NCBI RefSeq assembly: GCF_030848395.1
Contig: NZ_JAVDBT010000002.1
Span: 186,001 to 250,000 of the forward strand
Source: Pseudogemmobacter lacusdianii
GTDB taxonomy: Bacteria; Pseudomonadota; Alphaproteobacteria; Rhodobacterales; Rhodobacteraceae
Length of the DNA: 64,000 bases
Direction: 5' to 3'
Every line of letters starts with the position of its first letter. Position 1 is the stretch's first letter. Of the stretch, positions 5,739 through 61,263 are shown piece after piece. Below the pieces are notes generated by a model. It was not told the DNA's origin, did not search any database, and worked only from the letters and a program-made list of their open reading frames with translations. The translations under genes were made by a program, and so were the position numbers.

Positions 5739-6365
5739 ATGCGTTACGATCTTGATCAAGTGGCGGAGCCGATCGCCTATAAGCTGTTGGCCGCCACCAC
5801 TGTGCCGCGCCCGATTGCTTGGGTGGTGACGCAAGATGCTGAAAACAAAGTAAATGCTGCGCCGTATAGTTTCTTCAACGTCATGGGCTCGGCACCTCCG
5901 ACGATCGCTTTGGGCCTGATGCGCGCAGCCGATCGCGGCTTCAAAGATACCGCGCAAAACATTCTCGATACCGGCGTTTTCGTGGTTAATCTGGTGCCCG
6001 AGCGGCTGGTGGAGGCAATGAACCTGACCTCGGCCGATGCGCCGCGAGGGGTAGATGAGCTGGCCTTTGCCGGGCTTGCGACGCTGCCTTCGGTGCATGT
6101 GGCGCCGCCTCGGATTGCTGAAAGCCCGGTGGCTTATGAGTGCCGCGCGCTTTCGACCGTGGTCACGGGGCCGAACCAAGTTGTGGTGATTGGCCGGGTG
6201 CTGGCGGTGCATATCGAGGATCGGTTCTTGCTGGATGCCGAGCGCGCGCATGTCGACACACCCGCGCTGGACCTTGTCGCGCGGTCTTTTGGCAGCGGCT
6301 ATATTCGCAGCCGCGACACATTTGAGCTGGCGCGGCCGACTTGGGCGGGGCTGAACAAGGGCTGA
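5739..6365 (+). CDS. Flavin reductase-like (FMN-binding split barrel) protein
   Basis: A 208-residue protein of the flavin-reductase-like split-barrel fold. The start of the barrel reads TTVPRPIAWVVTQD, followed by NAAPYSFFNVMGSAPP, the usual flavin-contact segment. This subgroup (DIM6/NTAB-like) is often annotated as a flavoredoxin or flavin reductase; true substrates are mostly unknown. A good ribosome site (GGAGG) sits just before the ATG. It lies directly upstream of the catabolic operon and might supply reduced flavin to it, but a separate palindrome-rich gap of 115 bp intervenes, so co-transcription is uncertain. Confidence 0.8.
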   Translation: MRYDLDQVAEPIAYKLLAATTVPRPIAWVVTQDAENKVNAAPYSFFNVMGSAPPTIALGLMRAADRGFKDTAQNILDTGVFVVNLVPERLVEAMNLTSADAPRGVDELAFAGLATLPSVHVAPPRIAESPVAYECRALSTVVTGPNQVVVIGRVLAVHIEDRFLLDAERAHVDTPALDLVARSFGSGYIRSRDTFELARPTWAGLNKG

Positions 6366-6380
6366 GCGGTCCCCGCACGG

Positions 6381-6392
6381 ATTATCGATAAT
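6381..6392. promoter_or_regulatory. Perfect 12-bp palindrome, candidate operator
   Basis: ATTATCGATAAT is its own reverse complement. It lies 88 bp before the NicX-like start and five bases ahead of a TTGACA hexamer at 6397-6402, so a bound protein could block a promoter. No known regulator motif was matched. Confidence 0.4.
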
Positions 6393-6423
6393 TCTGTTGA
6401 CAGCTGCGCTGCTGCGGTGAAGT

Positions 6424-6441
6424 CTTAACTCGATAGTTAAG
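6424..6441. promoter_or_regulatory. Inverted repeat operator upstream of the NicX-like gene
   Basis: Perfect 7-bp arms CTTAACT and AGTTAAG flank CGAT. The site is 39 bp before the start at 6481, just downstream of the TTGACA at 6397-6402, where a repressor would interfere with transcription. The TetR or a GntR protein encoded in the same region is the natural candidate binder; this is inference. The two TTAA units are 8 bp apart, not the 7 of a CtrA site. Confidence 0.45.
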
Positions 6442-6480
6442 AAATTCGCGCCAATGCGAATCATCAACAGGGATATTGCG

Positions 6481-7533
6481 ATGCTGCAAGAACGCATCGA
6501 AGGCAAATGGCTGGCCGCCTTTCGCCGGGTTTTCGCGCTGAACGGGATTGGCAAAGGCACGCGGATTGCGATCCTGCATGAGACGCAATCGCGCCCGGTT
6601 CTGGTGCATCTGTCGGAGCTTGCCGCCTATGATCTGGGGGCCGAGTTCTGCATGATCCAGATGCCGACGCCGCCCTTGTCGGCGCCGGTGCCGGTGAAAT
6701 CGACCGGCACCTCTTGGGCGATCCAAGGCAATCGCGCGGTGATCGAGGCGCTGAAGCTCTGCGAAGTGATCGTTGATTGCACGGTCGAGGGGCTGATCCA
6801 CGCCCCCGAATGGCCGGAGATCGAAGACGCGGGCAACACTCGGCTTTTGGTCATCACTAACGAACACCCTGAAATTCTTGAAAGAACCGAGCCGAAGGCC
6901 GAGCATCTGCCCGCTGTGCAAGCCGGTATTCAGATGCTGCGGGAGGCGTCGGAGATGCGCGTCACCTCGGCCCTCGGGACCGATCTGACGGTGGATCTGC
7001 GCGGCGCGCCTTGCGGTGGGACGGCGGGCTTTGCGACGCATCCGGGGGCCGTTGCACATTGGCCGGGCGGGCTGTGTCTGGCCTTCCCCGGCAAGAACGC
7101 GGTCAACGGGCGCATCGTCATGGGGGTTGGGGATATGAACCTGACCTTTAAGACGTATCTGACCAGCCAGATTGATTTCACCATCGAGAATGACTTCGTC
7201 ACCGCGATCAAAGGTGACGGCATCGATGCGCTGCATTTCCGCGAATATATGGAAGCTTGGAACGATCAGAACGCCTATGGGATGAGCCATGTCGGCTGGG
7301 GCATGCATCCGGGCGCGCGTTGGATCAGCGCGGCGATGTATGACAAGCGCGACATGCAGGCGGTGGAGTTCCGCGCGCTAGCGGGCTCGTTCCTGTGGTC
7401 CACCGGCGCCAACCAATATGCCGGCCGCTACACGCTTGGCCATTTTGACCTGCCGATGCGCAATTGCACCATCGCTTTGGACGGCAAGATCGTCGTCAAA
7501 GACGGTGTGCTGCAAGGCGAGCTGGCCCTCTGA
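6481..7533 (+). CDS. NicX-like Fe(II) dioxygenase / M29 aminopeptidase-fold protein
   Basis: A 350-residue protein resembling 2,5-dihydroxypyridine 5,6-dioxygenase (NicX), an extradiol-type ring-opening enzyme built on the aminopeptidase T fold. The family triad is visible as His270 (SHVGWG), His321 and Asp323 (GHFDLP), close in position to the iron ligands described for NicX. I chose ATG 6481 because AGGGAT lies just before it and the length then equals that of NicX proteins; an upstream ATG at 6454 is possible. It heads an operon with a flavoprotein, a hydrolase fusion and a TetR gene. An M29 metallopeptidase role is the main alternative. Confidence 0.72.
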   Translation: MLQERIEGKWLAAFRRVFALNGIGKGTRIAILHETQSRPVLVHLSELAAYDLGAEFCMIQMPTPPLSAPVPVKSTGTSWAIQGNRAVIEALKLCEVIVDCTVEGLIHAPEWPEIEDAGNTRLLVITNEHPEILERTEPKAEHLPAVQAGIQMLREASEMRVTSALGTDLTVDLRGAPCGGTAGFATHPGAVAHWPGGLCLAFPGKNAVNGRIVMGVGDMNLTFKTYLTSQIDFTIENDFVTAIKGDGIDALHFREYMEAWNDQNAYGMSHVGWGMHPGARWISAAMYDKRDMQAVEFRALAGSFLWSTGANQYAGRYTLGHFDLPMRNCTIALDGKIVVKDGVLQGELAL

Positions 7534-7553
7534 TTTTCGCAGAAAGACCTAAA

Positions 7554-8861
7554 ATGAGCGATATTAGTGACTATTATGACCTGAGCCGCATCCGCCCTGA
7601 GGTGCAAGCCGTGCTGCGCCGGGTGAATGAACTGGGACCCCGTTTCGCCGAACGCGCCAAGGCGGTGGATGATGAGGCGAGCTTCCCGGTCGAGAATTAT
7701 CGCGATCTGGCGGATGAAGGGTTTCTGACGCTCTGCATCCCGGAAGAGTTCGGCGGCATGGGCTTTAGCATGGGCGAATATGCTATGGTCGGGGCCGAGT
7801 TGGGCAAGTTTTGCGGCGCAACCGCGCTGACCTTCAACATGCATAACAGCTCGATGGCTTGGTCACGCTTCATGTTCGAGATGCCGAATCTGACGCCGGA
7901 AGAGCGCGCCGAATTCGCCACTCTGCGCGAACGCCAGTTCCGCCGCGCCATTGCCGAGCGGGCGATCTATTCGCAGCCGATCTCGGAAGGCGGGCAAAAC
8001 TGGACCTCGAAGCCGAACCAAACCCAATGCCGCGCGGTTGAGGGTGGCTGGAAGATCAATGGTTTCAAGAAGTTCGCCTCGCTGGCGGGCTATTGCGACT
8101 ATTACACCATCGTTTGCACCGAAGTCTTTGAGGGCCAAGAGCCGCGCCATGAGGACACGATGCTCTTCGTGGTGCATAAGGACACCCCCGGCCTGACGAT
8201 CAAGGGCGATTGGGATCCTTTGGGGATGCGCGGCACCAACAGCCGTGACTTGATTTTGCAGGATATTTTCGTCACCCGCGACGATCTCCTGATGCCGCGC
8301 GGGATCTTTGGCAAAACGCTGGCCAACTGGCCGCATATGATGGCGACGCTGTCGCCGACCTATATGGGCGTGGCGCAGGGGGCGTTCGATTTCACCGTCG
8401 CCTATTTGCAGGGCCGTATCCCGGGGCAACCTCCGATCGACCGGCGCATGTTTGCGACCAAACGCGTCGCCGTGTCGAAGATGTATGCGCGTCTGGCGAG
8501 CATGCGGGCGCTCTGGTGGCAGGCTTTTGGCGAGGCCAAGGGGTTTCCGACCAAGGGCGAGGTGATGCGGATGTATGCCGCGCAGTTTAACGTGATGGAG
8601 GGCGTGCAGGAGATTGCCGCGATGGCGATCCGCACCTGTGGTGGGCAGTCGATGCTGCGCTCTTTGCCCTTGGAGCGGATGTATCGCGACAGCCGCTGCG
8701 GGGCGCTGATGTTGCCCTATACCTCTGAAATCATGGAGGATTATATCGGCGTGCTGGCACTTTACGACATGGATGAGCTGGATGATGCGCCGGGTGATCT
8801 CGATGGCGCGCGCACCTCGCTCTGGCGCGGCGAAGGCTCGGCCGTGAAGGGGCTGCGCTGA
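7554..8861 (+). CDS. Acyl-CoA dehydrogenase-fold flavoprotein
   Basis: A 435-residue protein with the acyl-CoA dehydrogenase layout: N-terminal helical domain with GFLTLCIPEEFGGMG (about 54-68), middle barrel with LGMRGTNSRDL, and C-terminal helical domain with RMYRDSRCGAL. The position normally occupied by the catalytic Glu in YEGTSQI reads PYTSEI, so Pro388 replaces that base. This fits a relative that does something else, for example a flavin-dependent monooxygenase of the same fold using reduced flavin from the reductase at 12168. The true start ATG 7554 follows the NicX-like stop by 20 bp. The TGA shares bases with the next ATG. Confidence 0.8.
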   Translation: MSDISDYYDLSRIRPEVQAVLRRVNELGPRFAERAKAVDDEASFPVENYRDLADEGFLTLCIPEEFGGMGFSMGEYAMVGAELGKFCGATALTFNMHNSSMAWSRFMFEMPNLTPEERAEFATLRERQFRRAIAERAIYSQPISEGGQNWTSKPNQTQCRAVEGGWKINGFKKFASLAGYCDYYTIVCTEVFEGQEPRHEDTMLFVVHKDTPGLTIKGDWDPLGMRGTNSRDLILQDIFVTRDDLLMPRGIFGKTLANWPHMMATLSPTYMGVAQGAFDFTVAYLQGRIPGQPPIDRRMFATKRVAVSKMYARLASMRALWWQAFGEAKGFPTKGEVMRMYAAQFNVMEGVQEIAAMAIRTCGGQSMLRSLPLERMYRDSRCGALMLPYTSEIMEDYIGVLALYDMDELDDAPGDLDGARTSLWRGEGSAVKGLR

Positions 8862-10150
8862 TGGGACGCGACAGGGTTCAAGTCACCGGGCGCGTTGCGG
8901 CGGAGCCGGAAAAGGTTTGGGCCCTGTTGCGCGATTTCTGCGGGCTTTGGCACCCGTGGATGGAAAGCATCACGGCTGAGCGGGACCCGCGCGGGGCGTT
9001 GATCCGGGCCTTTACGGTGAAGGGTGAGGCGACGCTTTACCGCGAGCAGCTGACCTATTTCTCCGATACCGACCGGGTGCTGGGCTATACCCATCTGGAG
9101 GGGATCGCGGGCTGCGAGGCCTATGATGCGCGGGTTACGGTGACGGACGGCAGTGAAGGCGGCGCGATGGTGTCTTGGTCTGCCGTAGTGCGCGCCCCGG
9201 CGGCGCGGCTGGCGGAGATATGCGAAGGCACGAAGGCGGTGTTTGAGGCCGGAATCGCGGTGTTAGAGACTGTTTCCAACGCGGCGCGACCGCAGATGAG
9301 CAGGTTTGAGGTGATCCCCACGGCCGAGACGAAGGCGCTGTTGGTCGATGATCTGCCGCGCCTTGGGCTGACCACGGCGGGCGGGCCGGGCAAGCGGCTG
9401 TGCCTTTTCCTGCATGGCATTGGCGGCAATCGTGACAACTGGGATTTACAGCTGAACGCGGCGAGCGCGGTGATGCCCGCCGCCGCGCTGGATCTGCGGG
9501 GTTATGGCGAAAGCACTCTGGGGCCGCGGCAATCGACGGTGGACGATTATTGCGACGATATTCTGCGGGTGATGCAGGTCATAGGGGCCGAGCGACTGGT
9601 CCTGGTCGGGCTCTCCTATGGCTCGTGGATCGCCACCTCTTTCGCGATGCGCCACCCGCAGCTTTTGGACGGATTGGTGCTTTCAGGCGGCTGCACGGGC
9701 ATGTCCGAAGCGGGCCCGGATGAGCGTGAGGCGTTCCGGATCAGCCGTGAAGTGCCGCTGAACGCAGGCCAAACGCCGAAGGATTTCGCGCCTGCGGTGG
9801 TGAAGGTGCTGGCGGGGCCGAATGCCAGCGAGGCCATACGTCAGAAGCTTTATAACTCGATGGCGGCAATCCCGGCCGAGACCTATCGCGATGCTTTGGT
9901 CTGCTTCACCAACCCGCTGGAGCAGTTCGATTTCTCCAAACTGACCATGCCGGTTCTTATGATGACGGGTGAGCATGATCGGCTGGCGCCACCTGATGAG
10001 ATTCGCGGTGTGGCGGGGCGGATATGGGATGCGGCGCTGCATGCCGACGTGCGCTTTGAAGTGATTAAAGACGCAGGGCATCTTTGCAATGTTGAGCAGC
10101 CCGGAGCTTATAACCGCGTGCTGACCGACTTTTTGCGGAAGCTGCCATGA
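8861..10150 (+). CDS. SRPBCC domain / alpha-beta hydrolase fusion protein
   Basis: A 429-residue two-domain protein. Residues 1 to about 150 look like an SRPBCC (START/polyketide-cyclase-like) ligand pocket, with VQVTGRVAAEPEKVWALLRD at the start and a long C-terminal helix. Residues about 165-429 are an alpha/beta hydrolase with HGIGG oxyanion motif, nucleophile Ser252 in GLSYGS, acid Asp373 in TGEHD and base His407 in AGHL. Next to a NicX-like enzyme, the hydrolase half could act like the deformylase NicD on a ring-opening product; this is inference. The reading frame is continuous through the junction. It overlaps both neighbours by a few bases. Confidence 0.8.
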   Translation: MGRDRVQVTGRVAAEPEKVWALLRDFCGLWHPWMESITAERDPRGALIRAFTVKGEATLYREQLTYFSDTDRVLGYTHLEGIAGCEAYDARVTVTDGSEGGAMVSWSAVVRAPAARLAEICEGTKAVFEAGIAVLETVSNAARPQMSRFEVIPTAETKALLVDDLPRLGLTTAGGPGKRLCLFLHGIGGNRDNWDLQLNAASAVMPAAALDLRGYGESTLGPRQSTVDDYCDDILRVMQVIGAERLVLVGLSYGSWIATSFAMRHPQLLDGLVLSGGCTGMSEAGPDEREAFRISREVPLNAGQTPKDFAPAVVKVLAGPNASEAIRQKLYNSMAAIPAETYRDALVCFTNPLEQFDFSKLTMPVLMMTGEHDRLAPPDEIRGVAGRIWDAALHADVRFEVIKDAGHLCNVEQPGAYNRVLTDFLRKLP

Positions 10151-10833
10151 GCCAGCTGCCGCGCCGCCAACAGAACCGGCTGGATCGTGAAAAGCGCATT
10201 CTGGATGCGGCTTTGGTGACCTTTGCGGCACTGGGCTATTCCGGCACCACGATGGATGCGGTGGCGGCGGAGGCGAGGCTCACCAAGCCGACGCTTTACT
10301 CCTACTTCCCGTCCAAGGAATCGCTCTTTCAAGCCATGATGCTGGGCAAGCGCGACCGGATGCTGGATGTGTTTGAGCATCCCTCGCCCGATGGCATGGT
10401 GCAGGATCTTTATACCTTCGCCTGGGACTATGCCGATACGGTGATGCGGCCGGATCTTTTGTCTCTCGCAAGGCTGATCATTGGCGAGGTGCAGCGCTTT
10501 CCCGAGATCGGTCGCGCCTATCAAGCATCGGGCCCGGATCACCTTCTGCGCGGCATCATGCGCTACCTGGAAGAGCGGCGTGAGGCTGGCCAGTTGGCGT
10601 TCGACGAGGCCGAATTGGCGGCGCAGGATCTGTGGGGTTTGATCCTCTCGGCTCCGCGGACTCAGGCTCTATACATGCCGGATTCGCCCCCCGACCGGGC
10701 GGCGCTGGCGCGCTATATCCACAACGGCCTTCGGGTGTTCCTGAAGGCCTATTCAGCCGCCGCAAAGGCGGACATCGAAAAACTGAACGCGCTTATAAGC
10801 GCGCAGCCTCAACAGGTGGGACATGACGCTTGA
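10147..10833 (+). CDS. TetR-family transcriptional regulator
   Basis: A 228-residue regulator. The N-terminal TetR helix-turn-helix spans about residues 16-62 (ILDAALVTFAALGYSGTTMD then LTKPTLYSYFPSKESLFQAM). The C-terminal ligand domain is divergent, as usual. The start overlaps the hydrolase stop (ATGA) and the end overlaps the next gene, so it is embedded in the catabolic operon and likely autoregulates it. The palindromes upstream of 6481 are plausible binding sites. The effector is unknown. Confidence 0.92.
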   Translation: MSQLPRRQQNRLDREKRILDAALVTFAALGYSGTTMDAVAAEARLTKPTLYSYFPSKESLFQAMMLGKRDRMLDVFEHPSPDGMVQDLYTFAWDYADTVMRPDLLSLARLIIGEVQRFPEIGRAYQASGPDHLLRGIMRYLEERREAGQLAFDEAELAAQDLWGLILSAPRTQALYMPDSPPDRAALARYIHNGLRVFLKAYSAAAKADIEKLNALISAQPQQVGHDA

Positions 10834-12163
10834 CGACTTTCTTGCTGATCCAGCAAGCCGCTTTGCCACGGTGGCAATGGCCGATACCAACGGGCTTTTA
10901 CGCGGGCAGATGGTGTCGAAATCCAGCCTGAAGGGCATTGCGCAAAACGGCATGGGCATGGCCCCGGCGCAGCTGGCTTTGGATCCGACCGATGCGATGC
11001 TGACCATTCCGGGCGTGAATGACGACAGCGGCGATTTCCACGATGATCCGCTGGAACTGGACCCAACTTCGGTGCGGCAATTGCCGTGGTCAAAGCCCGG
11101 CCATGACCTTTTGGTCCTGTCGAATTACACCGGAAGTTCGGCTGAGATCTGCCCGCGCTCGCTGTTGAAGAAGGTGCTCGCAAGGGCGGATTCCGCAGGA
11201 TTAGTGCCGAAATACGGCATGGAGTTGGAATATACTCTGTTCGACGAGACGCCCGAGACGGCCAAGGCCAAGGGCTATCGCAATCTAAAGGCCGCGACCC
11301 AGCATGCCAGCCATGACCTGATCCTGTATCAAGTCGTGCAGACTGAATGGTATGAGGCGCTGTCAGCGATGTGTGAGCCGCTGAAGATCGACCTTGCCAA
11401 GATGCATGAAGAGATTGGCGCAGGCTTTATGGAGGCTTGCATCGGCGCAGGCACCGGGGTTGAGCCTGCTGACCAATTGGTTTTGCTAAAGAATTTTATC
11501 CGCGCCTTGGCGTTGCGGCAGGGCCGCTCGGTCACTTTCATGCCGCGTTGGAATGAGAATGCCGACAGCCAGTCGATCCATCTGCATATCTCGATGAAGG
11601 AAAAGGCGGGGACGTCGCTCTTTTGGGATAGAGACCAAAAGAACGGTGTGAGCCAAACCTTCCGCTGGTTCCTTGGTGGTTTGCAGGCCTATATCGGCGA
11701 TATGACCTTGATCTTCCAACCCACGGTGAACAGCTATCGCCGCTTTGCGCCGGGCACCTTTGCGCCGCCGGGCCTGACGTGGGGCTATGAGAACCGAACC
11801 ACCTGTTTCCGCCTTGTTGGTCACGATTCCGGATCGCTTCGGGTTGAAAATCGGCTGCCGGGCGCGGACTGCAATCCCTATCTTTCGGCGGCTGCCACCA
11901 TCGCCGCAGGGGTTGCCGGGATCCTCAATAAGATTGAGCCGGATGATGAGGTCATCGGTTCGGGCTATGCGCAGGAACCGACCCGCGACTTCGCCCGTTC
12001 TATGCCCGAGGCGATTGAGCGGCTTCGCGGGTCGGACTTTGCCAAGGATTGGCTGGGGCCGCGCTTTGTTGAGGCTTTCACCGCCACGCGCCAATGCCAA
12101 TATGATGAGTTCCGCCGCCGGGTGCCGGATGTGGAGCTGGAACGTTTCTTCGATCTGGGATGA
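10823..12163 (+). CDS. Glutamine synthetase-like gamma-glutamyl ligase (first copy)
   Basis: A 446-residue member of the glutamine synthetase superfamily. The metal/ATP motifs are visible: YGMELEYTLF (about 132-141), SIHLHIS (about 252-258) and RVENRLPGADCNPYL (about 347-361). Sequence and setting argue against primary ammonia assimilation: it sits inside a catabolic operon after a TetR gene. Relatives of this kind ligate glutamate to amines, as in aniline, isopropylamine or putrescine breakdown. The ribosome site AGGTGGG lies within the end of the TetR gene. The amine substrate cannot be read from sequence. Confidence 0.85.
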   Translation: MTLDDFLADPASRFATVAMADTNGLLRGQMVSKSSLKGIAQNGMGMAPAQLALDPTDAMLTIPGVNDDSGDFHDDPLELDPTSVRQLPWSKPGHDLLVLSNYTGSSAEICPRSLLKKVLARADSAGLVPKYGMELEYTLFDETPETAKAKGYRNLKAATQHASHDLILYQVVQTEWYEALSAMCEPLKIDLAKMHEEIGAGFMEACIGAGTGVEPADQLVLLKNFIRALALRQGRSVTFMPRWNENADSQSIHLHISMKEKAGTSLFWDRDQKNGVSQTFRWFLGGLQAYIGDMTLIFQPTVNSYRRFAPGTFAPPGLTWGYENRTTCFRLVGHDSGSLRVENRLPGADCNPYLSAAATIAAGVAGILNKIEPDDEVIGSGYAQEPTRDFARSMPEAIERLRGSDFAKDWLGPRFVEAFTATRQCQYDEFRRRVPDVELERFFDLG

Positions 12164-12167
12164 GCTG

Positions 12168-12674
12168 ATGGATCTGCGCACCGCATTTGTGGAAGGCATG
12201 AGCCGGGCCGCGACTTTTGTCGCGGTCGTGACCACCGATGGGCCGGGGGGGCGTGCGGGGGTGACGATTTCCTCGCTGACCTCGGTCTCGGCGGACGGCG
12301 ATCAGCCCTCGCTTCTGGCCTGCATCCATCATCTCTCGCCCGCCGCGGCCGCGATCATGAAGAACCGCGCCTTCACTGCAAACCTTCTGGCCGAGGATCA
12401 GCAGCCCTTGTCTGACCTTTTCGCCGGGCGCGGGGGGGAGGATCGTGGCGCAAGGTTTGACCGGGTGAACTGGCAGCCGGGCGCCTTGGGACAGCCCTTG
12501 CTTCAAGGCGCGACGGTGACCTTTGAATGCCGTTTGGCGACCTCGCTTTTGTGGGAGTCGCATCACATCATGGTGGGCCGCGTGGCCCAAGTGACCTTGG
12601 CTGAGACGCCGCATGCTTTGCTTTACGGCCAGCGCGGATACCGCCGGGCAGTGGGGTTCAACCCCGAGGGTTAA
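12168..12674 (+). CDS. Flavin reductase (HpaC/RutF-like)
   Basis: A 168-residue flavin-reductase-domain protein that should reduce free FMN or FAD with NAD(P)H. Typical segments are FVAVVTTDGPGGRAGVTISS near residues 14-33, LLACIHH near 46 and KNRAFTANLL near 62-71. The frame is open far upstream inside the ligase gene, but ATG 12168, five bases past that gene's stop, gives the standard N-terminus. As last gene of the operon it could feed reduced flavin to the acyl-CoA-dehydrogenase-fold protein at 7554. It is convergent with the GntR gene and overlaps it by 4 bp. Confidence 0.88.
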   Translation: MDLRTAFVEGMSRAATFVAVVTTDGPGGRAGVTISSLTSVSADGDQPSLLACIHHLSPAAAAIMKNRAFTANLLAEDQQPLSDLFAGRGGEDRGARFDRVNWQPGALGQPLLQGATVTFECRLATSLLWESHHIMVGRVAQVTLAETPHALLYGQRGYRRAVGFNPEG

Positions 12675-13339
12675 GCGGTTCTCAGAAAGCCTGCTTCAAC
12701 CCGTACGGCCGTGTCGCGGTAGTGCTGGGCCAAAAGCGCGGATGCCTTCGCAAAGTCGCGCGCCAAGGTGGCATCGGCGATCGCGCGATGCTCGGCCTGC
12801 ACGTCGCGTTTGGCGCCTTGGGCCATGTTAGGGATGCGGTAGCGTTCGCATTCGGCGTAAAGCCGGTCGAATTGCTCCAACATCCGAGGTGATTTGCAGC
12901 CCGCAATCAGCGCATGGTGAAAGGCGTGGTGGCGGGCTTCAAAGGCGTCTTGATCGGCCTCACTCGGGCTGTCTTCCAGTCGGCGGGCCTGCAAGACCAA
13001 AGCGTGCAAAGCGGCGACGATCTCCGATTCCCAAGCGTCATCGCCGTCGCGGATTGAAAGGCGCAGGGCCTCGGCCTCCAAGAGGATGCGGAAGTTGATC
13101 GCGTCCCACATCTCAACCGGGGTCAGCGGTGCGACGGTGAAGCCGCGCAGGGGCATGAGGACGACCAGACGCTCGGCTTGCAAGCGGCTGAGGGCTTCGC
13201 GCAAGGGCGATTGACCCATGCCGTAGCGATCCGAGAGTTGGTGCATGCGCAAAGGCTCTTGCGGCTTCCAATGGCCGCGCAGGATGTCGCGGCGCAGCAG
13301 GCGGTAGGCGTCTTCGGTCAGGGTGGTGCTGCGCGCCAT
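12671..13339 (-). CDS. GntR-family regulator (FCD type)
   Basis: A 222-residue regulator with an N-terminal winged helix (AYRLLRRDILRGHWKP, then SDRYGMGQSPLREALSRLQ at about 34-52) and an all-helical FCD ligand domain with conserved His residues (ARHHAFHHAL). Start ATG 13339 is chosen because AAGGA lies eight bases upstream; an in-frame TTG at 13363 would add eight residues. FCD regulators usually respond to carboxylic acids, so a catabolic intermediate is a likely effector. It faces the catabolic operon from the opposite strand. Confidence 0.9.
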   Translation of the reverse strand: MARSTTLTEDAYRLLRRDILRGHWKPQEPLRMHQLSDRYGMGQSPLREALSRLQAERLVVLMPLRGFTVAPLTPVEMWDAINFRILLEAEALRLSIRDGDDAWESEIVAALHALVLQARRLEDSPSEADQDAFEARHHAFHHALIAGCKSPRMLEQFDRLYAECERYRIPNMAQGAKRDVQAEHRAIADATLARDFAKASALLAQHYRDTAVRVEAGFLRTA

Positions 13340-13507
13340 GCGATGTCCTTGTGTTTGATTCAAGGATTAGCGAACCCAAGCCTGACTGTCGAGAATCCTA
13401 GCGCTTTCGCAGCAACCGGCGCGCTTGCCATTGAGCGGGCAGGGCCAGTCTGATAGACAAAACCCGATGAATTGAGGGCGGTGCGCCGCCAGAGGCAGGA
13501 GTTCCCG

Positions 13508-14011
13508 ATGACCGAAGAAACCGCTGGCACCAACGGTGCGGCCGCCCCGGCTCCGCAACTGCGCATGCAGGTTGTGGCGCAATATGTCCGCGATATGAGC
13601 TTTGAAAATATCGTGGCGCAGAAAGGGCTTACCACCTCGGAAGTGCAACCCGACATTCAGGTTGGCGTTTCCTTGGATGCGCGCAAACGCTCGGTGGAAA
13701 ACCAGTATGACGTGATCACCAAGTTCAAGATCACCTCGAAGAACAAGCTGAACGGCGATACCCTGTTCCTGATGGAGCTGGAATACGGCGGCACGTTCCA
13801 CATCGAGGGCGTGCCGGAAGACCAACTGCACCCGTTCTTGATGATCGAATGCCCGCGTCTGTTGTTCCCCTTCGTGCGCCGCATCATCTCGGATGTGACG
13901 CGTGACGGTGGCTTCCCGCCGCTGAACGTCGACAATGTCGATTTCTTGGCCTTGTATCGCCAAGAGCTGGCGCGTCGCGCGCAGCAAGCTCCGGCGACCG
14001 CTCCGAACTGA
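13508..14011 (+). CDS. secB: Protein-export chaperone SecB
   Basis: A 167-residue cytoplasmic chaperone that holds preproteins unfolded and hands them to SecA. The core motifs are VVAQYVRDMSFENI, VGVSLDARKR, FHIEGVPEDQLHPFLMIECP and FPFVRRIISDVTRDGGFPP, all SecB signatures. ATG 13508 has AGGAG upstream; the longer frame from 13472 is not needed. This core gene separates the two catabolic blocks, which suggests that the flanking accessory genes inserted around it or were assembled there. A hairpin follows at 14021. Confidence 0.96.
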   Translation: MTEETAGTNGAAAPAPQLRMQVVAQYVRDMSFENIVAQKGLTTSEVQPDIQVGVSLDARKRSVENQYDVITKFKITSKNKLNGDTLFLMELEYGGTFHIEGVPEDQLHPFLMIECPRLLFPFVRRIISDVTRDGGFPPLNVDNVDFLALYRQELARRAQQAPATAPN

Positions 14012-14020
14012 GATTTTGTA

Positions 14021-14044
14021 TGGCCCGAACCCAGGTTTGGGCCA
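14021..14044 (+). terminator. Hairpin after secB, candidate terminator
   Basis: TGGCCCGAACC and GGTTTGGGCCA pair with one G-T wobble around CA, giving a strong stem 10 bp after the secB stop. It is followed by TGTTAG rather than a clean T-run, so termination may be partial. It could also serve the ferredoxin operon coming from the other strand, whose stop is at 14073. Confidence 0.55.
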
Positions 14045-14072
14045 TGTTAGACTAGGTTTTCGTGCCTCGGCC

Positions 14073-14387
14073 TTAGGGCTGGGGCACGATCAACACCAGC
14101 CCGTCCAAAGCGGGTGACATCTTGATCTGGCACGACAGCCGCGAGGTCGGACGCCGCTCAGCCTCGGCCACGTCGAGCATCGGGTCTTCGAAATCCCCCA
14201 CATCGCCGGTCTTGGCCGCCCAAGCCTCATCCACATAGACATGGCAGGTGGCACAGCTGAGATTGCCGCCGCATTCGCCCACCACATTGGGAATGTTATT
14301 GGCGACCGCGGCCTGCATCATATTCAGCCCCTCGGGGACTTCGGCCGAGATTTCGTGCCCGTCGGGCAGGATCCAAGTGGCTTTCAT
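14073..14387 (-). CDS. 2Fe-2S ferredoxin, putidaredoxin type
   Basis: A 104-residue ferredoxin of the adrenodoxin/putidaredoxin class. The cluster cysteines are CGGNLSCATC (spacing Cys-x5-Cys-x2-Cys) and a fourth in RLSCQI about 35 residues later. It should pass single electrons to the P450 encoded in the same operon. The frame is open further upstream, but ATG 14387 (MKATWILPDG) has a correctly spaced GAGG and gives the normal length. It starts seven bases after the upstream ligase stop. No ferredoxin reductase is in the window, so that partner must be encoded elsewhere. Confidence 0.93.
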   Translation of the reverse strand: MKATWILPDGHEISAEVPEGLNMMQAAVANNIPNVVGECGGNLSCATCHVYVDEAWAAKTGDVGDFEDPMLDVAEAERRPTSRLSCQIKMSPALDGLVLIVPQP

Positions 14388-14394
14388 CATATCC

Positions 14395-15687
14395 TCAGAT
14401 GTACCAGATATACCAATCGCGCAAAGCATCGCCTTCCAGTCCGGCGGTCTTCTCCACCTCGGCGCGCTTCATGAAAATGTGATTGTCGACAAGGCCTTGG
14501 CCGACAGCTGCGCCAAGGGCGGTATCAGCGGCAAGGTCGTCGATCGCCTCCGATAGGCTGGCGGCGGTCCCGTGGGGCGCATCGTTGCAGGTAAAGCCGT
14601 CGCCGGTTTCGCGCGGGGGCAAATCATACTTGCCCTCATAGCCCAGAAGCGCCGCCTGAAGGATCGTGGCCACCGACGTATAGGGATTGGCGGCGGCATC
14701 GGGCATGCGGTGTTCAAGCCGGGCCTTCTTGCCACCCTCGGCGCTGACGCGGGCGGTCACGTTGCGATTGTCGCCGCCCCAATTGCACCAATAGCCCGAC
14801 AGGCTGGCCGGTTGCAGCCGCGCATAGGAGAGCGCGTTCGGCGCCACCAGGCCGGCGATTGCCTTGTGGTGCTGCATCCAGCCCGAGATGCAGCCGCGCG
14901 CAAGATCCGAGAGGTCATCGGGGTCGCCCCGCTCGCCCTTTGCGAGTGCGTTTTGGCCTTTTGCATCGGTGAATGACAGATTCACATGCAGGCCGGACCC
15001 ACCCTTTCCCGCGATGGGCTTGGGTAGGAAGGAGAGGATAACCCCATGATCCAGCGCGATTTCACGGGCCATTTGCCGGAAGAGCACCACTGAATCGACA
15101 TGGGCCACGGCAGTGTCGAAGGTCAGGGTGAATTCAAACTGCGGCGTGTCATATTCGGCGGTGATCAGGTCCAAAGGTAGGCCAATTTCATGCGCCTTGT
15201 TCCAGATCGCATCGGTAAAGCGGCGCGGATCGGTGAAATTTCCGGTGCCGTAAACCACGCCGCCGGGGTTGTCATAGGGCACGATCTGCCCGTCGGCGTT
15301 GCGGATAAAGGCGAAGGCTTCCAGCTCAATCCCAATCTTGGGCGTCAGGCCATGCTTCCCCCAAGCCGCAACCGCCCGCTTCAAAGCGCCGCGTGGGCAC
15401 ATCGGCAAGGGGCCACCTTCGGCGTCGTAAAGATCGCCCAGAACCACCTTGGTTGCAGGCTCCCATCCGGGGCGCACTTCGTCACCAATCCAGCGCAAAA
15501 CCATATCTGGAAGGCCCTGAAGGCAGCGGCTGCCCGGCGCTTCCAAGAGCAAATCTTTGTCGTAATGCACAGAAAAATTCGGCTGAGCAAAGCGGCTTTC
15601 ATCATTGCCTATCTTTGAGGCCGGCAGATATTTGCCCCGCATGATCGACAGATGATCGCAGAACATAGCGCGAAGGCGCTCGGACAT
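14395..15687 (-). CDS. Glutamine synthetase-like gamma-glutamyl ligase (second copy)
   Basis: A 430-residue glutamine synthetase superfamily protein, clearly different from the copy at 10823. IGIELEAFAFI (about 117-127), GSGLHVNLSF (about 232-241) and RLEHRMPDAAANPY (about 335-348) correspond to the metal, ATP and glutamate sites. It lies between the P450 and ferredoxin genes on the minus strand, with GGGAG before its ATG. Known P450 clusters for cyclic amines (piperidine, pyrrolidine, morpholine in mycobacteria) also carry such a gene. The likely role is gamma-glutamylation of an amine; the substrate is unproven. Confidence 0.85.
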   Translation of the reverse strand: MSERLRAMFCDHLSIMRGKYLPASKIGNDESRFAQPNFSVHYDKDLLLEAPGSRCLQGLPDMVLRWIGDEVRPGWEPATKVVLGDLYDAEGGPLPMCPRGALKRAVAAWGKHGLTPKIGIELEAFAFIRNADGQIVPYDNPGGVVYGTGNFTDPRRFTDAIWNKAHEIGLPLDLITAEYDTPQFEFTLTFDTAVAHVDSVVLFRQMAREIALDHGVILSFLPKPIAGKGGSGLHVNLSFTDAKGQNALAKGERGDPDDLSDLARGCISGWMQHHKAIAGLVAPNALSYARLQPASLSGYWCNWGGDNRNVTARVSAEGGKKARLEHRMPDAAANPYTSVATILQAALLGYEGKYDLPPRETGDGFTCNDAPHGTAASLSEAIDDLAADTALGAAVGQGLVDNHIFMKRAEVEKTAGLEGDALRDWYIWYI

Positions 15688-15729
15688 TGTAATCTCCCTG
15701 GGATCGCGGTCTTGTGCCGCTTTGAAAAT

Positions 15730-16986
15730 TTATTGAAGCGTGACGCGCACCGGCAGTTCTTTGACGCCGCCGATGAAATTCGAGCGGAGGAATTTTTGCT
15801 CGCCCGCAGGTTCAATACTGCGCAGGCGTTTGGCAAGTTCTTCGAACAGCACCCGCACCTCAAGCCGCGCGAGCCACATCCCCAAGCAGACATGCGGACC
15901 GCCCTGCCCGAAAGAGATGTGGCGGTTCGGATTGCGGGTCAGATCGACCTTAAACGGCTCTAAGAAGGCGGAATCGTCACGATTCCCGCTGGCGAACCAG
16001 TAGAGGACTTTGTCCCCCGCCCGGACCTGCTTGCCGTGATAGTCAAAATCCCGCGTCGCGGTGCGGCGGAAATAGGTGGTGGGGCTGGCCCAGCGGATGA
16101 TCTCATCCGCCATGGTCTCATTCACCTCACCGCGCTGGATTTGGCCCAAAAGCTCGGGCTGATGACAGAGCGCCTGAATACCGGCGGCGATCGAATAGCG
16201 GGTGGTGTCATTGCCAGCGGCGACGAGCAGGCAGAAGAAATTGCGAAACTCATGTTCAGGCATGACCGAGCCATCCGGCCCCGGCTGCAACAGAAGATGC
16301 AAGATGCCCGAGGTGTCGCCCGAGGCCGCCTTTTTCTCCATCATTTCCTTGGCATAGACGAAGAGCTCTGCACCGGCCGGAGAGTTGAACGGCATCATCC
16401 GAAACTCATCCGTCGTCATCTTATCAAGGACGTGCTGGGTGAAATCGGGGTCGGTATTGGCGATCAGCGCATCGCCTTTTTCCACGAGCCAAGCCAGATC
16501 CTCATCCGGCAGGCCAACGATGCGGCCAAGCATCCGCATCGGCAGCTGTCGCGCGATCTCTTTGGTCGCATCAAAGCGGCCCTTGGCAAAGGCATCGTCC
16601 AAAATCGGGCCGCAAAGGTCGCGGATCACCTTCTCAAACTGCGCAATCACTGGCTTGGAGAAGGCTTTGGCGACCTTCACCCGCGTCATCATATGGTCGG
16701 GCGCGTCGGTCTCTTGGAAGGTGCGGCGGGCGAGATATTCCTCATAGGTCTGATCCTCCATCCGGATGCCGCGCGCGCTGGAAAGGAGATCAGGCTTGCC
16801 GTTCAGCTCAAGAATATCGGCGTGGCGGGTGACCGACCAAAAGCCTTGCCCAGCGGAATAATCGGTCCAATGCACCGGATCGTCGCGCCGCAGCCGGGCA
16901 AAAGTGTTGTGGGGCGGGCCGTTCAGGAAGGTGTCATGGCTGGTCAGATCGGCGTGGCCGTCGTCGCTGGGGGTCCAGACCGTCAT
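15730..16986 (-). CDS. Cytochrome P450 monooxygenase
   Basis: A 418-residue soluble bacterial P450. The heme ligand is Cys367 in FGQGGPHVCLG, the I-helix oxygen motif is AAGNDTT near residue 253, and the K-helix ExxR is EIIR near 290. N-terminal LNGPPHNTFARLRRDDPVHW is typical of class I bacterial P450s, which take electrons from a 2Fe-2S ferredoxin such as the one encoded two genes downstream. It is the first gene of the minus-strand operon, with GGGAGAG upstream. Substrate is unknown; context points to an amine or N-heterocycle. Confidence 0.95.
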   Translation of the reverse strand: MTVWTPSDDGHADLTSHDTFLNGPPHNTFARLRRDDPVHWTDYSAGQGFWSVTRHADILELNGKPDLLSSARGIRMEDQTYEEYLARRTFQETDAPDHMMTRVKVAKAFSKPVIAQFEKVIRDLCGPILDDAFAKGRFDATKEIARQLPMRMLGRIVGLPDEDLAWLVEKGDALIANTDPDFTQHVLDKMTTDEFRMMPFNSPAGAELFVYAKEMMEKKAASGDTSGILHLLLQPGPDGSVMPEHEFRNFFCLLVAAGNDTTRYSIAAGIQALCHQPELLGQIQRGEVNETMADEIIRWASPTTYFRRTATRDFDYHGKQVRAGDKVLYWFASGNRDDSAFLEPFKVDLTRNPNRHISFGQGGPHVCLGMWLARLEVRVLFEELAKRLRSIEPAGEQKFLRSNFIGGVKELPVRVTLQ

Positions 16987-17014
16987 TCAGCTCTCCCTTG
17001 CCGGACGTCTCTTT

Positions 17015-17043
17015 ATAAATATACTAAATGCGTGCATAAATAT
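17015..17043. promoter_or_regulatory. Direct repeats in the P450/amidotransferase divergent promoter
   Basis: ATAAATAT occurs at 17015-17022 and again at 17036-17043, a period of 21 bp or two helical turns. Between them lies ATGC-GT-GCAT (17028-17037), an imperfect palindrome. The 73-bp gap is the only place where the two divergent transcripts can start and is far more AT-rich than its surroundings, so an operator for a local GntR protein is likely. Confidence 0.45.
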
Positions 17044-17059
17044 GTAAAGGCTGCAGACC

Positions 17060-17737
17060 ATGCATATCGCGATCCTTATGGCGAACACGGATGAAAGTGC
17101 TTTTGCGCAAAGGCATCCAAAGGATGGCGAAAAATTCCGCAATCTTTTGGCACCTTTAAGGCCAGATTGGCGGTTCACCACGCTTTCTGTGAAGGATGGC
17201 ACCTTCCCCAGTGACCTGTCGGATTACGACGGGTTCATCATCACAGGCAGTCCGGCTTCGGTGCATGATGATGCGCCTTGGGTGCATCGGCTGATGCAGC
17301 TGATTCGCGATATTCGGACGGCTAAACTGCCGCTTTATGGCGCCTGTTTTGGGCATCAGGCGATCGCTTTGGCGCTGGGTGGGCGGGTTGAGAAAAACCC
17401 CGGCGGCTGGGTCTTTGGTCTGACCGAGACGCAGATGGAAGGCGCGCCGATCCACCTTTACGCCGCGCATGTCGAACAGGTGACCAATTTGCCGCAAGGG
17501 GCCGAGCCTTTGGGCGGCAATGCCGATTGCGCGATTGGAGCTTATCGGATCGGCGGGCAGGTTTTGACCACGCAATACCACCCCGAGATCACCGAGAGCT
17601 TCGCGACAGCTTTGGTTGAGGAATATTATGAAAAGCTACCACCCGAGGTCGCAAAGCGGGCAAAACAGTCTCTAACACGGCCCGCCGAGACAGAACGTAT
17701 GGCGCAACGCATCGTGGATTTCTTTGAAAGCGCCTAG
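17060..17737 (+). CDS. Class I glutamine amidotransferase-like hydrolase
   Basis: A 225-residue stand-alone glutaminase domain of the GMP-synthase-like class. The triad is Cys96 in YGACFGHQ, His174 and Glu176 in QYHPEIT. Such free-standing proteins often hydrolyse gamma-glutamyl amides (as PuuD does in putrescine use, or AtdA2 is thought to do in aniline use), which would pair with the gamma-glutamyl ligases here. It is divergent from the P450 operon across a 73-bp gap and overlaps the end of the convergent GntR gene by 4 bp. Substrate not established. Confidence 0.88.
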   Translation: MHIAILMANTDESAFAQRHPKDGEKFRNLLAPLRPDWRFTTLSVKDGTFPSDLSDYDGFIITGSPASVHDDAPWVHRLMQLIRDIRTAKLPLYGACFGHQAIALALGGRVEKNPGGWVFGLTETQMEGAPIHLYAAHVEQVTNLPQGAEPLGGNADCAIGAYRIGGQVLTTQYHPEITESFATALVEEYYEKLPPEVAKRAKQSLTRPAETERMAQRIVDFFESA

Positions 17738-18384
17738 GACAGCGCCGCCAGCAAATCCATCGCGGTGATCTGGTCAAAGGACACATGGCGCTGCATCAAC
17801 GCCTCGGCCCCTGTGGAATCGCGATCAAACATCAAGTTTGCCAAATGCCGATGCTCGGCCGCGGATAGGGCGATTGCACCGGCATAACGGTAGCGGGCGC
17901 GGTAATAAGCCAGCAATTTCCGAGCGTTGGTCTTGATCATCTCGGTCAGGAATGGATTGCCTGCCGCTATGGCCACTGTCTCGTGGAACTTTAGGTTCAG
18001 CTGGTAATAGCCATCGGGATCCGCGTCGCCCTTTTGGCTGGCATGCGCCTCGCAGCGAGCGACGATATCTTCCAGCGCCGCGGCCCCCGCCTTGGACAGC
18101 CGGCGTGCGGCAAGGCCCGCCGCTTGCCCTTCCAGCCGCGAATGCACCTCGAGGATCGCGAGGAACTCTTCAAGCGAGGGGCGAAAGAGGCTTGCCCCTT
18201 TGCGGGGGTGGCGGCGGATCAGGCCCATCGCCTCAAGCTTCAGGATCGCCTCACGGATCGGGGTGCGCGAGGTGCCAAATTCGGCCGCGATCAGGGATTC
18301 ATCGATTGGATCGCCCGGATTAAGCCGGCCAATGTCGATCCATTGCAAAATCGCCGCAATGAGCGTGTCAGTTTGTCCCGCCAT
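17734..18384 (-). CDS. GntR-family regulator (FCD type)
   Basis: A 216-residue regulator. The winged helix shows DPIDESLIAAEFGTSRTPIREAI at about 23-45, followed by GLIRRHPRKGASLF for the wing and then a helical FCD ligand domain ending with HRHLANLMFDRD and a conserved His. The cyclic-amine clusters of mycobacteria also encode a GntR regulator (PipR), so this is the best candidate controller of the P450/amidotransferase promoter at 16987-17059. It is distinct in sequence from the GntR at 12671. Confidence 0.9.
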   Translation of the reverse strand: MAGQTDTLIAAILQWIDIGRLNPGDPIDESLIAAEFGTSRTPIREAILKLEAMGLIRRHPRKGASLFRPSLEEFLAILEVHSRLEGQAAGLAARRLSKAGAAALEDIVARCEAHASQKGDADPDGYYQLNLKFHETVAIAAGNPFLTEMIKTNARKLLAYYRARYRYAGAIALSAAEHRHLANLMFDRDSTGAEALMQRHVSFDQITAMDLLAALS

Positions 18385-58574: not shown

Positions 58575-59957
58575 ATGACGAACGAAACTTGGGGACAGGT
58601 CCGCGAATCGCTGATGCAGCGTGTGGGCAAGAATAACTACACGACCTGGATTGAACCGCTCCGGCTGAATCGGCTGACGAATGGTGTCGCGCATTTCGAA
58701 GTGCCGACCAGCTTTTTTGGTGATTGGGTGCAGCGTAACTATGCCGACCATATCCGCAGCCAGCTGGTGAATGCCGGGGCTGAGGTGCATCGCATTGAAT
58801 TTGCTGTGGCAAGCGCGGCGCCGAAATCCGCTCCGGTGAAATCTGCTGCTGCCGCGGCTGCCCCTGCGGCGGCTCCGGCCCGTCCGGCCCGGGCGCGTGC
58901 CGGACAAGACGAAGAGCTGCCCGGCGCACCGCTGGATGCGCGTTTCACCTTTGACAGCTTCGTCGTCGGCAAGCCCAACGAGCTGGCCCATGCCGCCGCC
59001 CGCCGTGTCGCTGAGGGCGGCCCGGTGACCTTCAACCCGCTCTTCCTTTATGGCGGCGTGGGGCTGGGTAAGACCCACCTTATGCATGCGATCGCGCATG
59101 AGCTTCAGCTGCGCCGTCCCGATCTGCGGGTGCTTTATCTTTCGGCCGAGCAGTTCATGTACCGCTTCATCCAAGCCCTGCGCGACAAGCAGGTGATGGA
59201 TTTCAAACAGCTTTTCCGCTCGGTTGATGTGCTGATGGTCGATGACGTACAGTTCATCGCCGGCAAGGATTCGACGCAAGAAGAGTTCTTCCACACCTTC
59301 AACGCTTTGGTGGATCAGAACAAACAGATCGTCATCTCGGCCGACCGCGCGCCGGGGGAGATCAAGGATCTTGAAGATCGCATCCGCAGCCGCCTGCAAT
59401 GCGGTCTGGTGGTGGACCTGCATCCCACCGATTACGAGCTGCGCCTTGGCATCTTGCAGCAAAAGGTTGAGGCCTATCGCGCCCAATACAAAGGCTTGCA
59501 GATCACTCCGGGCGTTTTGGAGTTCCTCGCGCATCGCATCACCACCAACGTGCGTGTGCTGGAAGGCGCTTTGACCCGGCTCTTCGCCTTCGCCTCGCTC
59601 GTCGGGCGTGAGATCACGCTTGATCTGGCCCAAGACTGCTTGGCCGACATTCTGCGCGCCTCGGATCGCAAGCTGACCATTGAAGAGATCCAGCGCAAAG
59701 TGGCCGAGCATTACAACATTCGCCTTGCCGATATGATCGGCCCGAAGCGGCTGCGCACCATTGCCCGGCCGCGTCAGGTGGCAATGTATCTGGCCAAACA
59801 ACTGACCGCCCGGTCGCTGCCCGAGATCGGCCGCCGCTTTGGTGGGCGCGATCACACCACGATCATGCATGGCGTGCGCAAGATAGAAGAGCTGATGGCG
59901 ATGGACAGCCAACTCTCTGATGATCTTCAACTTCTGAAGCGGATGCTGCAGGGCTGA
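58575..59957 (+). CDS. dnaA: Chromosomal replication initiator DnaA
   Basis: A 460-residue initiator AAA+ ATPase. Domain I starts TWGQVRESLMQRVGKNNYTTW; a short Ala/Pro linker (about 90-115) is domain II; GGVGLGKTHL (about 160-169) is Walker A and LMVDDVQFIAGK Walker B; domain IV ends with GGRDHTTIMHGVRKIEEL, the DNA-binding signature. ATG 58575 is chosen by homology; the frame is open to 58452 but the extra 41 residues do not resemble DnaA. It leads dnaA-dnaN-recF. Confidence 0.97.
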   Translation: MTNETWGQVRESLMQRVGKNNYTTWIEPLRLNRLTNGVAHFEVPTSFFGDWVQRNYADHIRSQLVNAGAEVHRIEFAVASAAPKSAPVKSAAAAAAPAAAPARPARARAGQDEELPGAPLDARFTFDSFVVGKPNELAHAAARRVAEGGPVTFNPLFLYGGVGLGKTHLMHAIAHELQLRRPDLRVLYLSAEQFMYRFIQALRDKQVMDFKQLFRSVDVLMVDDVQFIAGKDSTQEEFFHTFNALVDQNKQIVISADRAPGEIKDLEDRIRSRLQCGLVVDLHPTDYELRLGILQQKVEAYRAQYKGLQITPGVLEFLAHRITTNVRVLEGALTRLFAFASLVGREITLDLAQDCLADILRASDRKLTIEEIQRKVAEHYNIRLADMIGPKRLRTIARPRQVAMYLAKQLTARSLPEIGRRFGGRDHTTIMHGVRKIEELMAMDSQLSDDLQLLKRMLQG

Positions 59958-60079
59958 CGGGCCGGCGGCCTTGACGGGCTTGGGAAAGCCTTACAAAGTC
60001 AGCGGTAATTTGTTGCGCCCCGGCAGTATCCGGGTAATGTCAGCGTCCCCGAATCGGGGCGCCGGCAGGGGGATGATGG

Positions 60080-61198: not shown

Positions 61199-61263
61199 AC
61201 CGGCGGCGGGGGCTGCGGCCTCCGACCTCGTGTTGCGACGTCACTTTTGGGAAGGGTCAGGTT

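Follow-up and report, generated by a model that had tools for sequence, protein, structure and literature searches.

We examined a 64,000-nucleotide stretch from the 3.78 Mb genome of Pseudogemmobacter lacusdianii (contig NZ_JAVDBT010000002.1, positions 186,001 to 250,000; the window hereafter), which carries two adjoining gene modules, each with a glutamine synthetase (GS)-like ligase, that we predict to function in the catabolism of organic amines. Pfam, NCBIfam and PDB searches bear out the genes named in a first-pass annotation made from the sequence alone, as well as the catalytic residues that it had assigned to a class I amidotransferase (C96/H174/E176) and a cytochrome P450 (C367). The single uninterrupted island described there, however, is parted by secB (13505-14011; above the NCBIfam cut-off) and, because this gene lies between the arms, we recognize two modules, namely A (5739-13363) and B (14073-18384).

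The genes listed from position 6481 onward stand as annotated, but module A begins upstream of them with a further flavin reductase-like gene, FR1 (5739..6365, + strand; PF01613, E 1.1e-25). It is followed on the same strand by a NicX-like non-heme Fe(II) ring-cleaving dioxygenase (6481..7533; PDB 7cn3, E 1.3e-56), a protein of the acyl-CoA dehydrogenase (ACAD) fold that the earlier gene list had overlooked (7554..8861; PF02770/PF02771/PF00441), an SRPBCC-like domain and an alpha/beta hydrolase in a single chain (8861..10150; PF10604, PF00561), a TetR-family regulator (10147..10833; PF00440, PF14246), the ligase GS1 (10823..12163; PF00120, E 7.7e-82) and FR2, a RutF-like flavin reductase (12165..12674; TIGR03615 at 116 bits, below the cut-off of 255). 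A GntR/FCD regulator, GntR1 (12671..13363, - strand; PF00392, PF07729), completes the module. Module B comprises a 2Fe-2S ferredoxin (14073..14429; PF00111, E 1.9e-9, with CX5CX2C in the translation), the ligase GS2 (14395..15687; PF00120, E 7.4e-68) and the P450 (15730..16986; PF00067), all on the - strand, together with a class I amidotransferase-like hydrolase (17060..17737, + strand; PF00117) and a second GntR/FCD regulator, GntR2 (17734..18384, - strand; PF00392, PF07729).

The P. lacusdianii genome has nine GS-family matches, so GS-like genes as such are not rare here. In alignments, GS1 and GS2 share 21% identity, and their identities to the organism's own GlnA-like protein are 27% and 25%, respectively (L001; L numbers denote loci, C numbers contigs of this genome and G numbers sampled genomes). 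The metal-ligand positions are retained in both, in alignment blocks judged by eye, whereas at Glu327 of the ammonium site (usual GS residue numbering) GS1 carries Phe and GS2 carries Leu, as against the Glu retained in the GlnA-like protein. The DGSS/Asp50 motif, present in the latter, is unaligned in GS1 and GS2, in a region where the alignment is uncertain. The closest PDB sequences of both ligases are glutamine synthetases, and GS2 also matches 4hpp (6.5e-33), which we take to be PA5508, an enzyme acting on monoamines. According to PMC11335346, ligases for organic amines are marked by the loss of such ammonium-site residues, and the combination seen in GS1 and GS2, i.e., metal ligands kept and ammonium-site residues lost, is that of the GoaS-like gamma-glutamyl ligases. 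Both are likely to be gamma-glutamyl ligases acting on organic amines; ordinary glutamine synthetases (GlnA), the contrary outcome foreseen in the first-pass annotation, are argued against by the loss of Glu327 and the unaligned Asp50 motif.

The P450-centered gene set of module B

The P450 displays both hallmarks expected of this superfamily, a heme loop (FGQGGPHVCLG) with C367 and the acid-alcohol pair of helix I (AGNDTT), and the amidotransferase has a complete Cys-His-Glu triad (C96, H174, E176), with gamma-glutamyl peptidase 1 as its best PDB match (9k7i, E 1.6e-13). With the P. lacusdianii genome included, the P450 was found in 45/292 genomes of the order (E <= 1e-80) and 11/385 of the class (E <= 1e-100), and both GS2 and the amidotransferase are present within 4 kb in 30/30 P450 loci, these being the best 30 of the 45, with that of P. 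lacusdianii among them. Of the 44 other P450 genomes in the order sample, 36 were examined, at 18 kb or less. The P450 set as a whole amounted to 66 rows, which were merged into 62 loci; three distant ones (L045, L198 and L199) were dropped to leave 59 loci of one clade, scored with identity cut-offs that the analyst set per gene (e.g., at least 38% for the decarboxylase). Among these 59 loci, GS2 is found in 57 and the ferredoxin in 33, which is the gene-neighborhood comparison suggested earlier for the P450, ligase and ferredoxin, alongside the amidotransferase in 55 and GntR2 in 34. The loci lacking GS2 are L070 and L223, and those lacking the amidotransferase are L044, L220, L221 and L223, the last being a 4.4-kb contig. 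Module B is a conserved gene set, beyond chance.

Other recurrent members of these loci are a class III aminotransferase (25/59), an IclR regulator (24), a TTT transporter (24) and a PF00282 decarboxylase (12), and arylacetate ring pathways of the homoprotocatechuate (8), paa (6) or homogentisate (6) type, any of the three being found in 20. The one decarboxylase that was searched against PDB, from L048, has DOPA (1.3e-103) and tyrosine (3.6e-101) decarboxylases as its top matches, with aromatic amino acid decarboxylases also recovered, and the representatives of HpaD and HpaH that were examined are above their NCBIfam cut-offs. In P. lacusdianii itself, a stretch of ~9 kb on contig C47 brings together the aminotransferase (82%), an aldehyde dehydrogenase, HpaE/D/G/H and IclR (48%), and a decarboxylase (60%) is on contig C23. 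A distant P450-GS pair from Streptomyces canus also lies near a gene annotated as a 3,4-dihydroxyphenylacetate 2,3-dioxygenase. These neighbor genes suggest a route from an amino acid through an arylethylamine and an arylacetaldehyde to an arylacetate, with the ligase, P450 and hydrolase predicted to act on the amine midway. A UPF0261 protein is a further recurrent neighbor of the aldehyde dehydrogenase and aminotransferase genes accompanying the P450 module (e.g., L072:2330-3574 and L231:6809-8041), including in P. lacusdianii.

The enzyme kinds of module B are also those of the Ipu clusters of A. aurescens TC1, which combine an amidotransferase, P450, ferredoxin, ferredoxin reductase and IpuC, and in which a gamma-glutamyl amide is hydroxylated and then hydrolyzed (PMC6776027); the clustering of a GS-like ligase, P450, ferredoxin and class I amidotransferase, and the logic of tagging, hydroxylating and untagging, are shared. 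A pathway of the Ipu type acting on a small amine, whether aliphatic or cyclic (isopropylamine, piperidine or pyrrolidine), in which the P450 would hydroxylate the amide and hydrolysis would yield an amino alcohol, could further draw on the match of GS2 to 4hpp. We nevertheless regard it as improbable in view of the aromatic neighbors, i.e., the decarboxylase in 12/59 and the arylacetate pathways in 20/59 loci, and likewise those of the S. canus pair, and of the set having no ferredoxin reductase among the genes of 14073-18384, to which that search was confined. Unlike Ipu, module B has decarboxylase, class III aminotransferase and homoprotocatechuate genes as neighbors, and its substrate is probably other than isopropylamine. 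Another possibility is that the P450 hydroxylates the carbon beside the amide nitrogen to give glutamine and an aldehyde, with the amidotransferase serving as a glutaminase or clearing excess amide. This would furnish the arylacetaldehyde directly and fit the varied lower pathways (homoprotocatechuate 8, paa 6 and homogentisate-type 6 of 59), but it appears unlikely because it leaves the class III aminotransferase (25/59) without a role, and because the Ipu product given in PMC6776027 is gamma-glutamyl-L-alaninol, with no dealkylated amide.

The reading that we favor for module B is that GS2 would join glutamate to an arylethylamine of the tyramine, dopamine or phenylethylamine type, which in some relatives the neighboring decarboxylase may supply from an aromatic amino acid. 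The ferredoxin-fed P450 would oxidize the gamma-glutamyl amide either at the ring itself or at a group attached to it, and the amidotransferase-like hydrolase would then take the glutamate off. The class III aminotransferase and the aldehyde dehydrogenase of C47 would convert the product to an arylacetate, which could enter the homoprotocatechuate pathway encoded beside them. To our knowledge, gamma-glutamylation and a P450 are no part of the tyramine and dopamine scheme of Pseudomonas putida U. The catabolism of these amines in that organism, via 3,4-dihydroxyphenylacetate (reference in PMC10606097), has the substrates and lower pathway that we propose for module B.

The NicX-like dioxygenase and its partners in module A

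The NicX-like protein has no match in Pfam or NCBIfam. In NicX, the Fe ligands are His265, Ser302, His318 and Asp320, and the substrate is bound by Glu177 and His189, the former contacting N1 and O1 of the dihydroxypyridine (PMC7910607). The Fe ligands are kept in the window protein and across its clade (H 89, S 89, H 89 and D 88 of 89), as are His189 (89/89) and His105 (89/89). The position of Glu177, however, is occupied by Thr in the window protein and 88/89 clade members, and by Val in one; three homologs from nic-like operons retain this Glu, with Phe in place of His105 in two of them. Given the substitution of Glu177, the module A dioxygenase is probably no nicotinate enzyme, which renders the nicotinate-type substrate of the first-pass annotation unlikely; it is probably a ring-cleaving enzyme that uses the iron chemistry of NicX, with 2,5-dihydroxypyridine an unlikely substrate.

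The other members of module A also differ from those of the nic operon. The FAD monooxygenase, Asp/Glu racemase and isochorismatase/amidohydrolase (presumably NicC, NicE and NicF) are missing from the window operon, which was the part of the genome searched for them, and genes of these kinds are present in L203, L204 and L205. On this ground, together with the loss of Glu177, we reject membership of module A in a nic operon or nicotinate pathway. The two systems share the dioxygenase fold, the Fe ligands and a neighboring alpha/beta hydrolase (PDB 7cn3; PMC7910607), but module A has a gamma-glutamyl ligase, the ACAD-fold protein and flavin reductases instead of the nic partners. A pyridine-type amine might still be degraded through a 2,5-dihydroxypyridine-like intermediate in the manner of nicotinate. 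The NicX fold with its four Fe ligands, His189 and His105, and the alpha/beta hydrolase encoded downstream, as with NicD, would favor this. Such a route is doubtful in light of the Thr at position 177 in 88/89, the absence from the operon of the nic partner kinds found in L203-L205, and the presence of anthranilate- and gentisate-type neighbors in their stead.

A scan of genome contigs recovered 331 NicX relatives, of which 80 were kept, and the counts below are over 96 NicX rows, in which at least two genomes appear twice (L092=L115; L094=L176) and automatic open reading frame (ORF) picking misses some genes. The NicX-like gene occurs in 12/292 genomes of the order (E <= 1e-100), with Tabrizicola sp. 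SY72 (94%) and Rhodobacter sp. SGA-6-6 (93%) being named relatives among the closest. Its companions across the rows are the ACAD-fold protein (94), NicX itself being picked in 90, the hydrolase (87), GS1 (80), TetR (60), an APC permease (57), FR1 (38), FAH (38), FR2 (37, and a further 16 as the LysR fusion described below), a gentisate-dioxygenase-like cupin (36), GntR1 (26), a nitrilase-like gene (22) and a benzoate-CoA-ligase-like gene (10). The names of the cupin, nitrilase-like and CoA ligase genes are approximate, since they score below their NCBIfam cut-offs (305/442, 176/503 and 362/375 bits, respectively). Clusters c17 and c18 were considered, on account of their fitting size, as a molybdenum hydroxylase lying upstream of NicX; this was rejected, as the one member read from each resembles a copper ATPase and a MerR-type regulator, respectively.

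We propose that the ACAD-fold protein is a two-component flavin monooxygenase, with a plain dehydrogenase as the alternative: its matches to oxygenase families (HsaA at 72 and 4-hydroxyphenylacetate 3-hydroxylase at 45 bits) are both under cut-off, its PDB matches include the nitrososynthase 3mxl, and flavin reductases adjoin the gene. For the SRPBCC-alpha/beta hydrolase, we propose a deformylase, amide hydrolase or C-C hydrolase activity. This hydrolase is fused to TetR in a 668-residue protein of L098 (10804-12810), and a like fusion is suggested by ORFs of 665-675 residues at the equivalent position in L096 and L099-L101. At the place of FR2, a flavin reductase domain is in places fused to a LysR substrate-binding domain (L135:15702-16868 and L039:17746-18924, the two examined from a cluster of 16 rows), with the appearance of a ligand-sensing reductase.

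On contig C9 of P. lacusdianii, the cupin (84%), FAH (82%), nitrilase-like (83%) and APC (54%) genes lie next to PRK08255 (66%) and a CoA ligase (74% to that of L135). PRK08255 is also found in L098, where it is above cut-off (1269 vs. 1078), and L099; amidotransferase and TTT genes are present in L098, L099 and L101. In Sagittula stellata, a CoA ligase sharing 76% identity with that of C9 is encoded together with kynureninase and tryptophan 2,3-dioxygenase in one operon, and in that organism a set of GS1-like (54%), amidotransferase and P450 (38%) genes sits between the kynureninase operon and an operon that we presume to be iac-like from its gene order, its NCBIfam matches being to related families only and under cut-off. 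The S. stellata plasmid thus gathers tryptophan-kynurenine genes, PRK08255, this set and the iac-like operon within 25 kb (L235:1-25204). A second instance of GS1 kin adjoining a P450 is a trio of GS1-like (55%), amidotransferase and P450 (37%) genes on a Novosphingobium humi plasmid (L199:7883-11227).

Because of the S. stellata context of the counterpart of the C9 CoA ligase, we favor an indole-type amine for GS1, the weaker of our two substrate proposals. In this proposal, GS1 would tag a second amine, possibly of the tryptamine or serotonin type, and the ACAD-fold protein would hydroxylate it with the help of a flavin reductase. The NicX-like dioxygenase would open the N-ring and the alpha/beta hydrolase would free a formyl or acyl group. 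The resulting product, of anthranilate type, could then enter either a gentisate-dioxygenase-like/FAH/nitrilase-like route or an anthraniloyl-CoA-type route, both encoded on C9. If 5-hydroxyanthranilate were cleaved between C1 and C2, an amide would remain on which a nitrilase-like enzyme could act, and we raise this cleavage because it fits the cupin, FAH and nitrilase-like genes. More speculatively, gamma-glutamyl-indolethylamines (tryptamine, serotonin) might be opened in the N-ring by the NicX-type dioxygenase to (5-hydroxy)anthranilate, which a gentisate-dioxygenase-like enzyme would cleave so as to turn the carbon carrying the amine into an amide for hydrolysis by the nitrilase-like enzyme, the whole forming with module B a system for tryptophan/tyrosine trace amines with glutamate as the handle.

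Association of the modules and their predicted role

Both modules lie within one 11-21 kb locus in 4/80 module-A genomes: L104 (Rhodobacter sp. SGA-6-6) repeats the order of the window, including secB, L141 and L174 have a second order and L172 a third. The L141 contig additionally has the aminotransferase, decarboxylase and HpaE/D/G/H genes (L206). At most 0.36 such neighbors would be expected on the assumption that all 80 genomes have the P450 (P about 5e-4 for four co-localized loci and 6e-3 for three, if independent). The P450 is found in 34/80 module-A genomes (17/50 + 17/30) vs. 45/292 in the order and 11/385 in the class; the 50-genome subset was chosen to include the four co-localized genomes, and the linkage estimate uses all 80. 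Fisher tests give 6e-4 for the order sample (7/12 vs. 38/280, counting a partial P450 match of 238 residues at a contig edge in G289), or 2e-3 with the P. lacusdianii genome removed, and 1.6e-4 for the relatives sample (5/6 vs. 15/140), the samples being overlapping and phylogeny uncorrected. NicX is present in 5/59 P450 loci, four of which entered the sample via the NicX scan.

That the modules are unrelated and merely chance neighbors near the replication origin would be consistent with the intervening secB, with each module being mostly alone, with the window being the only one of 37 P450 stretches in the order sample to have NicX within reach, and with G762, where both genes are on one contig but 3.5 Mb apart. 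We deem it unlikely given the four co-localized loci of 80, in three arrangements counting the window, and given that within the genus the NicX-like gene and the P450 occur in the same 3/13 genomes, although L141 and L174 may stem from one event and L104 shares the order of the window. The link between modules A and B has moderate support, and they are probably separate, functionally related modules that are at times brought together. The co-occurrence anticipated for the arms extends to the presence of the P450 in 34/80 NicX-arm genomes but to close proximity in just 4/80. One complete pathway in the locus, as envisaged earlier, is not supported: each arm also occurs alone, and partner genes lie on other contigs.

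Elsewhere in the window, dnaA, dnaN and a RecF-type gene (58575-62352) place its end close to a probable replication origin. A region at about 28-53 kb, as read from the letters, resembles a flagellar gene cluster, and a FHIPEP flagellar export gene lies at 37047-39119. The window has no tRNA genes, and promoter- and terminator-like sites show no excess over shuffled sequence.

Amine catabolism by gamma-glutamyl ligases with a P450, ferredoxin and amidotransferase, as first suggested, is supported by the residues, the conserved gene sets and the Ipu precedent, and the neighbor genes point to arylethylamines and indoles over piperidine-type amines. We assign a probability of about 0.5 to the reading that A and B are two related modules that each catabolize aromatic biogenic amines by way of a removable gamma-glutamyl tag, with a phenylethylamine-type substrate being the likelier assignment for module B and an indole-type substrate a tentative one for module A. 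Gene content, catalytic residues, the loss of Glu327, the conserved gene sets and the co-occurrence are results of computation; we infer all of the substrates, the position attacked by the P450, the sequence in which the enzymes act and the pairing of A with B.

Several observations weigh against this reading. The best PDB matches of GS2 are plain glutamine synthetases, the best NCBIfam matches of the ACAD-fold protein are dehydrogenases (109 bits, under cut-off), and no match was obtained between this protein and the IacA-like protein of Sagittula. An amidotransferase, in two recognized clusters, is found in just 7/96 module-A rows, which leaves tag removal in module A unexplained, and a 3-substituted indole lacks the N-CH=C(OH) motif at which NicX cuts. 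For module B, a decarboxylase or an arylacetate pathway is present in just 25/59 P450 loci, the decarboxylase has L-2,4-diaminobutyrate decarboxylase as its top NCBIfam match, far under cut-off, the paa neighbors of six loci fit poorly with ring hydroxylation, and the TTT transporters hint at a carboxylated substrate in some relatives. As to the pairing, all 11 of the P450 stretches drawn from other module-A genomes lack NicX within reach, adding to the presence of NicX in the window alone of the 37 mentioned above, and the P450 is missing from 46/80 module-A genomes, including 21/21 titled Mesorhizobium, Rhizobium, Shinella, Metarhizobium or Rhizobiales in the 50-genome subset and 5/6 rhizobial titles in the other 30. 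The exception is L134, a metagenome-assembled genome titled Rhizobium; L172, titled Hyphomicrobiales, has the P450 and L157 is without it.

The oxygenase of the aniline and 1-naphthylamine pathways is a dioxygenase, in whose place a P450 (module B) or the ACAD-fold protein with the NicX-like enzyme (module A) is found here. These pathways, with AtdA1/NpaA1 as the ligase and AtdA2/NpaA2 as the hydrolase (PMC11335346), share with our locus a GS-like organic-amine ligase lacking ammonium-site residues and an amidotransferase-like partner. The logic of tagging, oxidizing and untagging is already known; the gene sets and neighbors of modules A and B differ from the precedents. In titles and abstracts of open papers, we found no description of the P450-GS-amidotransferase-decarboxylase set or the NicX-GS operon, which does not establish their absence from print.

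Gamma-glutamylation as a handle for amine oxidation is known for few substrates. Our analysis suggests that a P450-ligase-hydrolase set of this logic is common in Rhodobacterales (45/292 sampled genomes) and may serve aromatic biogenic amines, and it delineates, in Rhodobacterales and rhizobia, a subfamily of NicX whose substrate site is altered. With two ligases, one P450 and one dioxygenase, the question of the substrates is directly testable.

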